Below, piece after piece: positions 26,440 to 61,704 of a DNA stretch of 64,000 nucleotides. The stretch spans positions 3,007,001 through 3,071,000 of the forward strand of contig NZ_CP135916.1 of the NCBI RefSeq assembly GCF_032391395.1. The letters run 5' to 3'. The stretch comes from Sphingomonas sp. Y38-1Y (GTDB lineage Bacteria > Pseudomonadota > Alphaproteobacteria > Sphingomonadales > Sphingomonadaceae). The notes under the pieces were generated by a model. That model did not search any database, was not told where the DNA came from, and was given only the letters and a program-made list of their open reading frames with translations. Every line of letters begins with the position of its first letter. Position 1 is the stretch's first letter. A program made the translations under genes and the position numbers.

Positions 26440-27665
26440 GGACGATTCAACCTGACGCTATAGGGCGATCGCTTCAGATACGGATTCCGGCGCGTGAAGG
26501 CGAGCAGCAGTCCGAACCCGATCGAAAGCGCGATCATCGACGACCCGCCATAGCTGATGAAGGGGAGCGTCATGCCCTTCGACGGCGCGATCCCGGTGTT
26601 CACCGCCATGTTGATCAGCGCCTGAAGCCCGAACTGGACCGCGAGGCCGGAGGCGGCGAGCAGTCGGAAGGCGTCCTCCTCGTCCAGCAGCTTGACGAAC
26701 ACGCGCACGACCAGCGCGAGGTACAGCAGCGCGACGATCATGCAGGCGATCAGCCCGAACTCCTCGCCGATCACCGAATAGATATAGTCGGTGTGCGCCT
26801 CGGGCAGCTTAAACTTGACCATGCCGCCGCCAGGCCCCGTGCCGGTGAAGCCACCGCCGGTGATGACCGCATGCGCCATGTCGGTCTGGTAATGGTCCGT
26901 CATCGCCTTGTCGGGATCGGGGAACAGGAAGGCGTCGATGCGGACGCGCGCGGTGCTGTAGAGGAAATAGGCCGCGATGATGCCGCCAAGGCCGATGCCG
27001 CCCAGCGCGCCGATCGCCTTGGGGCTGGTGCCCGCGATCATCAGCATCGTCACCCAGACCGCGACGAAGATCACCGTCTGGCCGAAGTCGGGCTGGAGCA
27101 TCAGCAACCCGCCGATCAGCCCGGTCAGCGCCATCGTGATCGGAAACAGCGGCAGGTCGGGATCGCGCGCGCGCAGCGACAACAGCCACGCGATCGTCAC
27201 GACGAACAGCGGCTTCAGGAACTCCGACGGCTGGAACTGCGTGAAGCCGAGGCCGATCCAGCGGCGCGCGCCGTTCTTCTCGTCACCGACAAAGGGCACG
27301 ATCGCGAGCATCAGCAGGAGGAAGCCCGTCCCCGCCAGCGCAAAGCGGCGCGCGACCAGCGTCGGCATCATCGACACGACCAGCAGCACCGGCACCGACA
27401 GCAGCACCCAGATCGCCTGGCGATAGAAATAATACATCGGCGGAAACGATTTGGTCGCATCCGAATAGCGGACCGCCGAGGCGGGGCTCGCCGCCGCGAC
27501 GGCGACCAGGCCGATGCCGATCAGCAGCAGCGCCAGGAGCAGGAGGACGCGGTCGATCTCCCAGAACCAGAGGCCGAGCGGCGATCGGTTGCCGCGGCCC
27601 AGCCGCTCCTCGACCTTGCCGCGCAACCCCCGCGCCCCTGCCTCGCCGCGCATCATGTCGGTCAT
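26436..27665 (-). CDS. ftsW: Peptidoglycan glycosyltransferase FtsW
   Basis: A 409-residue SEDS polymerase with about ten membrane spans, which polymerises lipid II together with FtsI at the septum. Characteristic stretches are ARRWIGLGFTQFQPSEFLKP, LMLQPDFGQT (catalytic Asp region), the loop HAVITGGGFTGTGPGGG, YIYSVIGEEFG and TLPFISYGGSSMIA near the end. The ATG at 27665 overlaps the murD stop by 4 bases, and the in-frame extension to 28139 is antisense-like noise. About 45 residues of cytoplasmic basic tail precede the first span. Confidence 0.97.
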   Translation of the reverse strand: MTDMMRGEAGARGLRGKVEERLGRGNRSPLGLWFWEIDRVLLLLALLLIGIGLVAVAAASPASAVRYSDATKSFPPMYYFYRQAIWVLLSVPVLLVVSMMPTLVARRFALAGTGFLLLMLAIVPFVGDEKNGARRWIGLGFTQFQPSEFLKPLFVVTIAWLLSLRARDPDLPLFPITMALTGLIGGLLMLQPDFGQTVIFVAVWVTMLMIAGTSPKAIGALGGIGLGGIIAAYFLYSTARVRIDAFLFPDPDKAMTDHYQTDMAHAVITGGGFTGTGPGGGMVKFKLPEAHTDYIYSVIGEEFGLIACMIVALLYLALVVRVFVKLLDEEDAFRLLAASGLAVQFGLQALINMAVNTGIAPSKGMTLPFISYGGSSMIALSIGFGLLLAFTRRNPYLKRSPYSVRLNRP

Positions 27666-29065
27666 GCGAGCTTCTCCACGAGCGCCGCGAACGCTTCCCC
27701 ACGCGCGGCATAGTCGGCGAACTGATCGAACGAAGCACAAGCCGGCGACAGAAGCACCGTCTCGTTGGGGTGTGCGGCGGCCGCCGCGCGCGCGACGGCG
27801 ACGTCGAGCGTGCCGCAGGCCTCGACCGGGAAGCCTTCGCCGGACAGTAGCCGCTCGAACAACGGCCCCGCTTCGCCGATCGTATAGGCGGCGGCGACAT
27901 GGGCGAAGCCGGGGCGGCATGCCTCCAGGCTGTCCGACTTGGCGACGCCGCCCAGGATCCAGTGGACGCGGTCGAAGGCGCGGAGCGCCGGCGCGACCGA
28001 TTCCGGGTTGGTTGCCTTGGAATCGTCGACGAAGCGGACACCGTTCCTGATCGCCACGGTCCGGGTGCGGTGCGGCAATCCCTCGAAGCTCGCCAGCCCC
28101 GCATCGATCGCGGCGTTGCCGATGCCGAGCGCCTCGCACGCGGCGATCGCGGCGAGCGCGTTCTGGGCGTTGTGCGGGCCTTGGAGGGCGGGCCAGCGCG
28201 ACTGGTCCATGCAGACACCAGGCGCGATCTTGGTCAGGTCCTCGGCGCGGCCCGCGCGCGCGACCTGCCGGGCAATGCCGGCCGACGCCTCGTCGCCGAT
28301 GCCGACGATCGCGGCGTGCCCCGCCGACTGCATCGCGAACAATCGCGCCTTGCTCGCGGCATAGGCGTCGAAGCCGTCATACCGATCGAGATGATCGGGC
28401 GTGATGTTGAGCAGCACCGCGACGTCGCAATCGAGGCTCTGCGTCAGGTCGATCTGGTAGCTCGACAGCTCGAGCACATAGACGCCGCCCTCGGGCAACG
28501 GCTTCTGGCCGAGGATGGGGAGGCCGATGTTGCCGCCCATCAGGCTCGGCACGCCGGCGGTCTGGAGGATGTGATGGATCAGCGCGGTGGTGGTCGACTT
28601 GCCGTTGGTGCCGGTGATGCCGACCACTTTGTGTGGGGGCAGGTCGGCGCGGGCTTGGGCGAAGAGTTCGATGTCGCCGATGACGGGCACGCCGGCGGCC
28701 TTTGCCTGCGCAGCGATCGGATGCGTGTTGAGCGGCACGCCGGGGGATACGACGACACCAGCGAAGCCGGTGAGGTCGATCGTGAGCGGGTCGGCGATGA
28801 CCAAAGCCCTCTCCCCTTCAGGGGAGAGGGTTGGGAGAGGGGAAGTCGCGAAACCGGATGACAGATCGCCGGCACCAGCCGACTGCCCCTCTCCCCGGCC
28901 CTCTCCCCTGAAGGGGAGAGGGAGATCGTTGCGCCGACCCTCATCGCTGTCCCACGCCGTCACCTCGGCCCCGCTTGCGACCAGCGCGCGCACCGTCGCC
29001 GCCCCCGACCGCGCAAGGCCGAGAACCGCGAAGCGCTTGCCGGCCCAGGCGGTGGAGCCGATCAC
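27662..29065 (-). CDS. murD: UDP-N-acetylmuramoylalanine--D-glutamate ligase, with repeat-encoded insertion
   Basis: A 467-residue Mur ligase that adds D-Glu to UDP-MurNAc-L-Ala. The N-terminal loop [17 protein letters not shown], the [14 protein letters not shown] strand, ATP loop [30 protein letters not shown] and the Mur signature [14 protein letters not shown] with [13 protein letters not shown] are all present. It starts with GTG overlapping the mraY stop (GTGA). Residues about 48-87 (LPLPFRGEG through LSPEGERAL) are encoded by a 116-base palindromic repeat lying in frame in the N-terminal Rossmann-like domain. This makes the protein about 30 aa longer than E. coli MurD (438). All catalytic motifs lie after the insertion. 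Confidence 0.96.
28807..28922. repeat. Palindromic repeat in frame inside murD
   Basis: Two hairpins with the same stem, CCCTCTCCCC/GGGGAGAGGG, lie at 28807-28830 (loop TTCA) and 28899-28922 (loop TGAA) and are inverted copies of each other. Inner arms 28833-28847 and 28881-28895 also pair. The whole 116 bases form one large imperfect palindrome translated as part of MurD. Confidence 0.9.
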
Positions 29066-31503: not shown

Positions 31504-31697
31504 CCTTCTCCCCTTGCGGGAGAAGGATAGCGAAGCTTGGCAGCTTGCTGCCTAGCGGAGCTTGGATGAGGGGTAAGCGACGCAGCGCGTCGCGCGACCG
31601 CGAGTGCGGTCGCTGACCCCTCACCCAGCTGCGACTAGGCCCGCGCTGGAAGAGCGCGGACCAAGTCTGCGCAACCCTCTCCCGCAAGGGGAGAGGG
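31504..31697. repeat. Palindromic repeat between murE and murF
   Basis: CCTTCTCCCC..GGGAGAAGG (31504-31526) is inverted at 31675-31697 with 20 of 23 matches, around a long interior with further short inverted stretches (GCGACGCAGCGCGTCGC, GACCGCGAGTGCGGTC). Its arms resemble those of the copy inside murD. It fills the 211-base gap, and its arm ends 5 bases before the murF ATG. Confidence 0.82.
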
Positions 31698-40064: not shown

Positions 40065-40146
40065 CCGTTCGCCCTGAGCTTGTCGAGCGGCGTGCCACGA
40101 AGGGCACCGCCTCCGGCACGTGCTTCGACAAGCTCAGCACGAACGG
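40065..40146. repeat. Palindromic repeat, CTGAGCTTGTCGA family
   Basis: CCGTTCGCCCTGAGCTTGTC (40065 on) is inverted, imperfectly, at 40115-40146. The same family recurs at 47638-47714, 52912-52943, 53017-53097 and 60759-60838. Confidence 0.88.
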
Positions 40147-40158
40147 ATTGTACCGCCC

Positions 40159-47637: not shown

Positions 47638-47714
47638 GTTCGTCCCGAGCTTGTCGAAGGACGTGGCGCGAGCGACGTGCGTGAGGCACGTGCTTCGACA
47701 GGCTCAGCGCGAAC
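47638..47714. repeat. Palindromic repeat, GAGCTTGTCGAAGGACGTG family
   Basis: GTTCGTCCCGAGCTTGTCGA (47638 on) is inverted, with a few mismatches, at 47687-47714. It lies between bamB and der. Confidence 0.87.
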
Positions 47715-47738
47715 GGGGCGTGAGGCAGTCCCCGCTCC

Positions 47739-52849: not shown

Positions 52850-52911
52850 CGCCCGGCGCACTGCCGCGCCGCTAGGGGCGGCGCGGCCTACCGTGAAATG
52901 ATGCCGCGTGA

Positions 52912-52943
52912 GGCACGTCCTTTGACAAGCTCAGGGCGAACGG
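52912..52943. repeat. Solitary half of a palindromic repeat
   Basis: GGCACGTCCTTTGACAAGCT (52912 on) to CGAACGG at 52943 matches one arm of the CTGAGCTTGTCGA family, but the facing arm is missing. It is probably a decayed copy. Confidence 0.7.
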
Positions 52944-53016
52944 GGTTGGTGCGGCGACCTACCGGGTGATTGTATTGTCAGTCGCTCCTTGCCGCGCGCG
53001 ATCGCAGCCTCTCACA

Positions 53017-60758: not shown

Positions 60759-60838
60759 CGCTCGTGCTGAGCTTGTCGAAGCACGTGCCTAAAACGCGCC
60801 GCTCGCGGCACGTCCTTCGACAGGCTCAGGACGAACGG
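60759..60838. repeat. Palindromic repeat supplying the 3' end of the FemAB/GNAT-like gene
   Basis: CGCTCGTGCTGAGCTTGTCG (60759 on, to 60789) is inverted, with mismatches, at 60807-60838. The right arm, read on the minus strand (CCGTTCGTCCTGAGCCTGTC), contains the stop codon of the gene at 60826-61704. Confidence 0.88.
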
Positions 60839-61704
60839 TGGAGGGTACGTTTCACCCAGGCCACCGCCCGATCGAACCCGTTCAGCGCCGCCATCGCCGC
60901 GCGGTTCGCCAGCGTCGGGCGCAGCAGGAACAGGTCGCAGCATTCGACATGGCCGGTCGCGAACTGGCGCTTGTGCTGCCCCTCGCCCTCGGTGAAGTCG
61001 AAGCGGGCATGGCCGCCCTCCTCCATCAAGTCCTTGAGCGCCGCGGCCATCAGCACCGTTCCCGGCGACAGCGCGTCGAACGCCTCGTCATGGCCGACAT
61101 ATTCATAGACGACGGTGCCGCGCTCGATCGGGCAGTAGAGATACGCCGCCGGCGCCTCGCCCACATAGAGCAGCCACCCGCGCGCCTGCCCCGCCGCCGC
61201 CTTTGCCAGCATGCCGGCGACCCATTTGGGATGCGCGGGCAGCCCCATGCCGAGCAGCTTCTCCTGATAGGTCGCCGCCGCCAGCGGTCGCGCGATTGCG
61301 TGAAACGCGGTCAGGTCGTCGGGCGTGCGATACCGACGCACGTCCAGCCGGCCATTCGTGGTCGCCGCGATCTTCTTGGCCTTGCGCTTCAGCGTCGAGC
61401 GGAGATTGCCCGACAGCTGCGCCTGATAGGCATCCCAGCCGAACCCCAGATCGGCATACCAGCGGCGATACCGCTGCCGTTCCGCCACGATCAGCCCGCG
61501 CGTCTCCAGCGCCGCGATCCGATCGACCGGGAGCGACAGCAGCGAATAGCCGTCGGCATCTTCGGGCAGCGGCGGCAGCACCGGCACGCGGCCATCGATC
61601 GCCCCCGCCAGCGGTACCGCCACGCGCACCAGCCGCCGCTTGAACTTGGCGAGCGTGCGTGTGCCGACGCGGAACGCGATCGGCAGGTCGAGCGCGGTGC
61701 TCAC
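60826..61704 (-). CDS. FemAB/GNAT-like acyltransferase
   Basis: A 292-residue protein with a GNAT/FemAB-like fold. After a domain with FRVGTRTLAKFKRRLVRVAV and LSLPVDRIAALETRGLIV comes a central basic stretch (LSGNLRSTLKRKAKKIAATT), then a GNAT-like half (GWLLYVGEAPAAYLYCPI, then YVGHDEAFDALSPGTVLMAA with FDFTEGEGQHKRQF). Relatives act on exopolysaccharide or peptide linkages, but the acceptor is unknown. The start is GTG at 61704, overlapping the deacetylase stop. The last residues HRSS and the stop codon lie in a palindromic repeat, so the original C-terminus may have been lost. Confidence 0.82.
   Translation of the reverse strand: MSTALDLPIAFRVGTRTLAKFKRRLVRVAVPLAGAIDGRVPVLPPLPEDADGYSLLSLPVDRIAALETRGLIVAERQRYRRWYADLGFGWDAYQAQLSGNLRSTLKRKAKKIAATTNGRLDVRRYRTPDDLTAFHAIARPLAAATYQEKLLGMGLPAHPKWVAGMLAKAAAGQARGWLLYVGEAPAAYLYCPIERGTVVYEYVGHDEAFDALSPGTVLMAAALKDLMEEGGHARFDFTEGEGQHKRQFATGHVECCDLFLLRPTLANRAAMAALNGFDRAVAWVKRTLHRSS

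Follow-up and report, generated by a model that had tools for sequence, protein, structure and literature searches.

REPINs are dispersed palindromes, mostly located outside genes, in which two inverted hairpins form one long palindrome. Three of the species named below, S. alaskensis, E. litoralis and S. wittichii, we take to be sphingomonads. In Rickettsia, palindromic elements (RPEs) of ~150 bp, belonging to several families, lie in frame in conserved protein genes and are thought to be compatible with protein fold and function, according to the sections consulted of PMC10969869 and PMC3733652; the former, a review, states in these sections that each RPE encodes a conserved peptide. The consulted text of PMC3733652 (2013) reports intragenic REPs in S. 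alaskensis and E. litoralis, a CGTC REP family in S. wittichii, CGTC-type REPs without a dedicated transposase, and REPs placed wholly within ORFs, among them uvrA and tRNA synthetase genes (S. alaskensis, E. litoralis, X. oryzae). The same-site case stated there is recB, in two Xanthomonas species, and the word murD is absent from its main text. Prokaryotic MITEs (ERIC and others) are described in the consulted part of PMC10969869 as short, non-autonomous, palindromic and occasionally intragenic. The portion consulted of PMC12306157 holds nothing on sphingomonads or intragenic REPs, and no report of recurrent palindrome insertion in murD was found in open-licence PMC papers.

In-frame palindromes in genes are already known, from RPEs and from intragenic REPs including those of two sphingomonads. 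An earlier note on the present DNA knew of no well-described equivalent in sphingomonads, a view that needs changing in the light of the reports on S. alaskensis and E. litoralis (PMC3733652, consulted text); the likeness to RPEs that it proposed was borne out, the murD palindrome being in frame and the rest of the protein intact. This likeness lies in the placement of palindromes in frame within conserved protein genes. Unlike RPEs, with their conserved peptide (PMC10969869, same sections), the Sphingomonas inserts vary in peptide and frame, and one and the same protein loop has received different families in many species. GTAG/CGTC REPs are likewise intragenic, with uvrA and tRNA synthetases among their hosts (PMC3733652, consulted text), but the ends of the Sphingomonas element are free of the GTAG/CGTC tag, and the same-site case of that paper concerns one gene in two species. 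The murD element resembles REPINs in having two inverted hairpins in one long, dispersed palindrome, and differs from the REPIN/RAYT system in that its genome has no Y1_Tnp match. It is short and palindromic with inverted repeats like MITEs, and unlike them shows no consistent target duplication, Y1 being the parent class searched. What looks new is that, across the genus, unrelated families have repeatedly occupied the same loops, with no resident Y1 transposase in the genome studied here.

The murD palindrome and its copies in the genome

The DNA analysed (the window) is a stretch of 64,000 nucleotides from the complete, 3.58 Mb, single-contig genome of Sphingomonas sp. Y38-1Y, hereafter G000. 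The features of murD and its palindrome are listed in Table 1.

Table 1. Location of murD, of the parts of its palindrome and of a related copy in the window
Feature	Position	Strand	Description
murD ORF (UDP-N-acetylmuramoyl-L-alanine:D-glutamate ligase)	27662..29065	-	467 codons; Mur_ligase_M, Mur_ligase_C, MurD-like_N
Palindromic element, 116 nt	28807..28922	-	MurD codons 48-87; from sequence, folding, inverted repeats and genome copies
Terminal hairpin 1	28807..28830	no strand	CCCTCTCCCC TTCA GGGGAGAGGG
Terminal hairpin 2	28899..28922	no strand	CCCTCTCCCC TGAA GGGGAGAGGG, complementary to hairpin 1
Outer arms	28807-28835/28894-28922		29 nt, 93% complementary
Inner inverted repeat	28833..28896	no strand	GGGAGAGGGG...CCCCTCTCCC, encloses variable middle
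Inner arm pair	28833-28848/28880-28895		16 nt, 94% complementary
Copy at the murE/murF junction	31504-31697		related inverted repeat, arms 23 nt, 91% complementary

Direct reading of the sequence and its frame confirmed that the palindrome lies in frame inside murD and is stop-free, as the earlier note had claimed. Its statement that the later MurD motifs are intact also holds, for the motifs and the Pfam domains outside the insert, and the murE/murF copy that it had noticed is indeed a related inverted repeat. It had counted about 40 added residues; the span of codons stands, while the net gain amounts to 37 residues. murD is present in a single copy in G000, the three other genome matches being 30-43% identical over parts of the protein only. 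Folded as RNA, the palindrome reaches −96.1 kcal/mol (z −9.55), a value as low being obtained with none of 200 shuffles. Allowing at most one mismatch, the window contains 16 occurrences of CCCTCTCCCC, where 6.84 would be expected, and 6 of these 16 lie within the murD element. The window also holds four copies of another dispersed repeat family, GAGCTTGTCGAAG...CTTCGACAGGCTCAG (47640-47716, 52906-52945, 60762-60840 and 40076-40148).

With the element as a query, the G000 genome yielded 53 matches over both strands, many of which are the two strands of one copy; the middle of the inner inverted repeat varies among copies. Fifteen places were inspected. Three lie in frame within conserved genes: murD, ileS and uvrA, where the insert separates the UvrA interaction domain from the DNA-binding one. 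The search for further copies inside ORFs suggested by the earlier note gave two among these 15 places. The other 12, placed by eye from ORFs and flanks rather than by Pfam, are not visibly within a conserved gene, and include the serC/serA and trpB/trpA gaps. One copy (3345315-3345500 of the genome) has a second palindrome nested within it.

Class and mobilisation of the element

The element has the properties of REP/BIME sequences in the broad sense, being palindromic, multi-copy, built of inverted hairpin pairs and mostly intergenic (12 of the 15 places), and it shares with RPEs its position in frame within conserved protein genes that are apparently functional. Twelve own copies and 20 copies of genome G018 (besides murD, from the matches listed) were read at their ends, whose positions came from a pattern and are wrong in a few rows (L003, L008, L014). 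The GTAG/CGTC tag of the REP superfamilies does not characterise these ends: within 8 nt, GTAG was found in 0 of 12 own copies and 1 of 20 in G018, and CGTC in 1 of 12, where it does not abut the element, and 2 of 20. Identical 2-bp flanks were seen in 8 of the 12 own copies and 5 of the 20 in G018, and no consistent target-site duplication was detected in these two samples.

No match to the Y1 transposase family (PF01797) was obtained in G000 at E ≤ 0.01, in a search whose control was positive in 6 of 14 genomes. Across the genus, Y1_Tnp was present in 11 of 101 genomes at E ≤ 0.001, 10 of them over the cut-off. At the four Y1 loci read in other species no bracketing palindromes were seen; two Y1 loci (L092, L093) have three one-sided GGGGAGGGG words each. 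A REPIN driven by a resident RAYT was rejected on these two grounds, the lack of Y1_Tnp in G000 and the four unbracketed loci. Given that neither a Y1 transposase nor a consistent target-site duplication was found, transposition is here something that we infer, and the palindromes would be mobilised by an enzyme acting in trans.

None of the 44 Rfam matches with E up to 1 reached its gathering score (the best at 53.5 bits versus 137), and most were to miRNA models, which fit any long hairpin. Selection of the element for being stop-free was also considered, and was rejected for families A and B (defined below), as open frames are close to the expectation from mononucleotide shuffles (A, 144 of 222 versus 130.8; B, 55 of 96 versus 51.9; the 12 own copies, 40 of 72 versus 36.0). 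Family C is unusually stop-free by the same measure (120 of 138 open frames versus 71.4 expected).

Occupation of the MurD loop across Sphingomonas

murD loci were collected from G000 and 58 congeners (59 loci), G007 and G035 giving weak matches only and no locus. Two loci, in G054 and G057, were left out, as the match begins at a contig end; a palindrome peptide is visible in both. Twenty of the 57 readable loops (G000 and 56 congeners) contain palindrome-derived peptides, all in frame and at the same place, constant within a few codons. Classed by peptide patterns, with four labels set by eye before the trees were built, they comprise 8 inserts of family A (the type of G000), 6 of B, 5 of C and 1 of D, hence three recurring families and one single case. 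Families A and B have stem elements in common, and C and D differ in sequence. S. aurantiaca is a named carrier of family A and S. changbaiensis one of family C. Folding z-scores lie between −3.1 and −11.6 for the 19 loops with a length of at least 86, and between −2.6 and +1.2 for the 38 shorter ones, the family D loop (length 78) being at −1.9. In two genomes (G016, G020) a second palindrome is nested, by eye, in the first with the frame kept. Among 167 MurD rows, an insert or remnant was assigned to 85 by peptide class, no insert to 66 and a longer loop of another kind to 16, and 13 rows resemble shortened in-frame remnants; the 120 listed homologues, best scorers against an insert-bearing query, may be enriched in inserts, and the genome sample is fairer.

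Several observations were made on individual loci. Contigs of G054 (C7/C8) and G057 (C6/C7) break off within or at the murD insert, and such alleles may hence go unseen in short-read assemblies. The murD region of G022 (contig 1, L081/L033) holds three family B palindromes at 906844, 907119 and 907394, a spacing of 275 bp, and next to the gene part of the murD N-terminus is repeated, an arrangement suggestive of tandem duplication of the segment with the insert. In Sphingomonas vulcanisoli the murD match is unusually long (1633 bases), and the loop motif was not found in it by pattern.

Judged by sequence comparison, the murD palindrome is an insertion relative to the sampled genomes, because the two nearest of them lack it. 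These, G027 and G038 (90% identical across the main matched stretch), have a loop segment of 6 residues versus 43 in G000, a net gain of 111 nt, and form a starred clade with G000 (100/99) in the tree of 57 cores. In other sphingomonad genera and unclassified sphingomonads, 16 of 17 loops are empty, with 56-61 residues (best 80 loci of a longer list; one locus, L294, left out as unreadable); the exception is a MAG labelled Rhizorhabdus, with a family C insert. The same residues in distant sphingomonads, which by the earlier note would have spoken against an insertion, were thus not encountered. Its proposal that the residues are an insertion unique to this strain survives in its first half only, since many congeners have different palindromes at the same place. 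An ancestrally variable loop without insertion was rejected, the nearest genomes being empty and copies of the element occurring across the genome.

The uvrA and ileS genes were searched in 34 congeners, 30 loci per gene being read together with the own gene. Folding at z ≤ −3.9 was found for 7 of 31 uvrA loops and for 11 of the 22 ileS loops that were read (9 of 31 were unreadable), with several different peptide types. By eye, pairs of species also have a common insertion site in valS (L256, L189), leuS (L218, L234), glyS (L258, L188) and the gene of a lipoyl-type E2 acyltransferase (L248, L225), names that come from reading the translations. The glyS of G018 (L258) has two separate palindrome-derived inserts in an apparently single glycyl-tRNA synthetase beta subunit.

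Genomes are enriched in the family that their murD carries (36 genomes, one-sided MWU, p 0.0024 for A, 0.00036 for B and 0.0076 for C), as measured with the G018, G004 and G034 inserts as probes and both-strand counts among the matches listed (at most 24 candidates scored per genome); the probes have stem sequence in common, and the counts are therefore not exclusive to a family. An exception is G044, with A in murD but 8 A versus 24 C matches among those listed.

AlphaFold2, run with an alignment of 52 homologues, gave a MurD model of mean pLDDT 85.6 (34.8 for the single-sequence prediction), in which the sole segment below 50, residues 52-84, is part of the insert and is flanked by helix 42-46 and strand 88-90. 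MurD structures account for the top 33 PDB matches of the model (TM-score 0.71-0.74 by query length for the best four). The model thus predicts a disordered insert in an otherwise folded MurD. The uracil pocket is presumably close to the insert loop.

Origin and meaning of the inserts

We consider it very probable that a non-autonomous palindrome landed in a tolerant loop of MurD, and that such loops have been occupied repeatedly across Sphingomonas. The palindrome would be of REP/BIME or MITE type, and would have survived by landing in frame and stop-free in an N-terminal domain loop where extra residues are tolerated, between a strand and helix (residues 34-46) and the next strand (88-90). 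Ribosomes would translate through it, adding ~37 disordered residues rich in Pro, Gly, Glu and Arg to an enzyme that still folds; the insert is presumably translated into stable protein and present in the mature enzyme, where it is probably near-neutral. The loops of MurD, UvrA and IleRS would have been occupied several times by several families, usually those abundant in the genome, and inserts would later have decayed in frame or been replaced. As other species carry different palindromes in the MurD loop, selfish DNA can apparently land there and be tolerated.

The turnover could alternatively reflect murD alleles exchanged between species by homologous recombination rather than new insertions. 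As if the insert had moved later, loop synonymous divergence in the three pairs formed by G034, G058 and OK281 is 0-0.05 versus 0.26-0.30 in the core, and different families are met in close rows (G024 has A; G058, with 95% core identity, and G034 have C). Between G034 and G058 the insert is 99.3% conserved versus 88.9 and 91.0% for its flanks, with no synonymous change in 39.7 sites versus 80.5 in 297.3 sites of the core, a conservation that is beyond neutral drift alone. Substitutions are nevertheless found close to the insert on either side, so that an exchanged tract could have covered hardly more than the insert itself, and the first arrival of each family still requires an insertion. From the synonymous pattern and these nearby substitutions, the insert is younger than the gene divergence, exchanged, or constrained. 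Part of the turnover may stem from recombination between species, but exchange in place of insertion seems to us an unlikely explanation.

We regard as more improbable still that few early insertions, or a single one, were inherited, overwritten in place by gene conversion and lost elsewhere, with little repeated landing. The constant position, the stem elements common to A and B and the remnant-like rows would agree with such a history. So would the quick tree of 167 cores (66 changes over all states). By path length, the closest row to G000 in this tree is the homologue P0002, whose insert occupies the same site but belongs to family C, and the two adjoin a starred clade made up of 16 empty rows; the G000 lineage may therefore have undergone two insertions or the swap of an older one. 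Grouping all insert-bearers in one clade is rejected, however (p-AU 9.8e-5, 57 cores). On that tree the presence of an insert requires 14 changes, 11 of them forced by starred branches, in single-gene trees built with a simpler model whose change count recombination would inflate. As few changes are needed by 46 of 500 label shuffles, which indicates that insert presence is only weakly clustered, as expected from rapid turnover. Furthermore, 12 of the 57 loops have a length of exactly 55, near the 56-61 of other sphingomonads, and so give the impression of a primitively empty state, not of a deletion. Families C and D differ in sequence, and no near-identical donor for the G034 and G058 inserts was found among the copies listed in these genomes (best other copy 85 and 82%, respectively).

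Retention for a function, whether as an mRNA hairpin that tunes translation of murD or as a loop that has gained a binding role, is in our opinion highly improbable. The hairpin is very stable and the G034 and G058 inserts are near-identical, but peptides and families switch between close relatives, 37 of the 57 loops are without a palindrome insert by peptide class, and the same pattern is found in unrelated enzymes. Loop pN/pS, moreover, is 0.33-1.4 in 9 of 10 pairs versus 0.11-0.31 for the core (undefined in G034/G058, where pS is 0), so that protein-level constraint is weaker on the loop than on the core. The chance that we are dealing with an assembly artefact or a pseudogene is practically negligible. 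Assemblies can break at such palindromes, as in G054 and G057 where the murD match is split over contig ends, but G000 is a single contig with one murD copy of intact motifs, and all listed murD matches of insert-bearing genomes are stop-free.

Beyond repeated landing in a tolerant loop, the nested insertions, the swaps between close relatives and the inserts younger than their flanks lead us to a bolder idea, which we think doubtful: the MurD, UvrA and IleRS loops might be long-lived docking sites in which unrelated palindromes are swapped as cassettes, by a process at the level of the element that prefers pre-existing palindromes. If this were true, selfish DNA would be remodelling loops of essential enzymes in a cassette-like manner. 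For annotators the warning is that closely related species differ in such loops for causes other than enzyme function, and that a contig may terminate within one. Because different palindromes entered the same essential-enzyme loops many times over, one can measure how they are tolerated, decay and are possibly domesticated, and Sphingomonas offers, in an environmental genus, a large natural experiment on how selfish DNA becomes protein.
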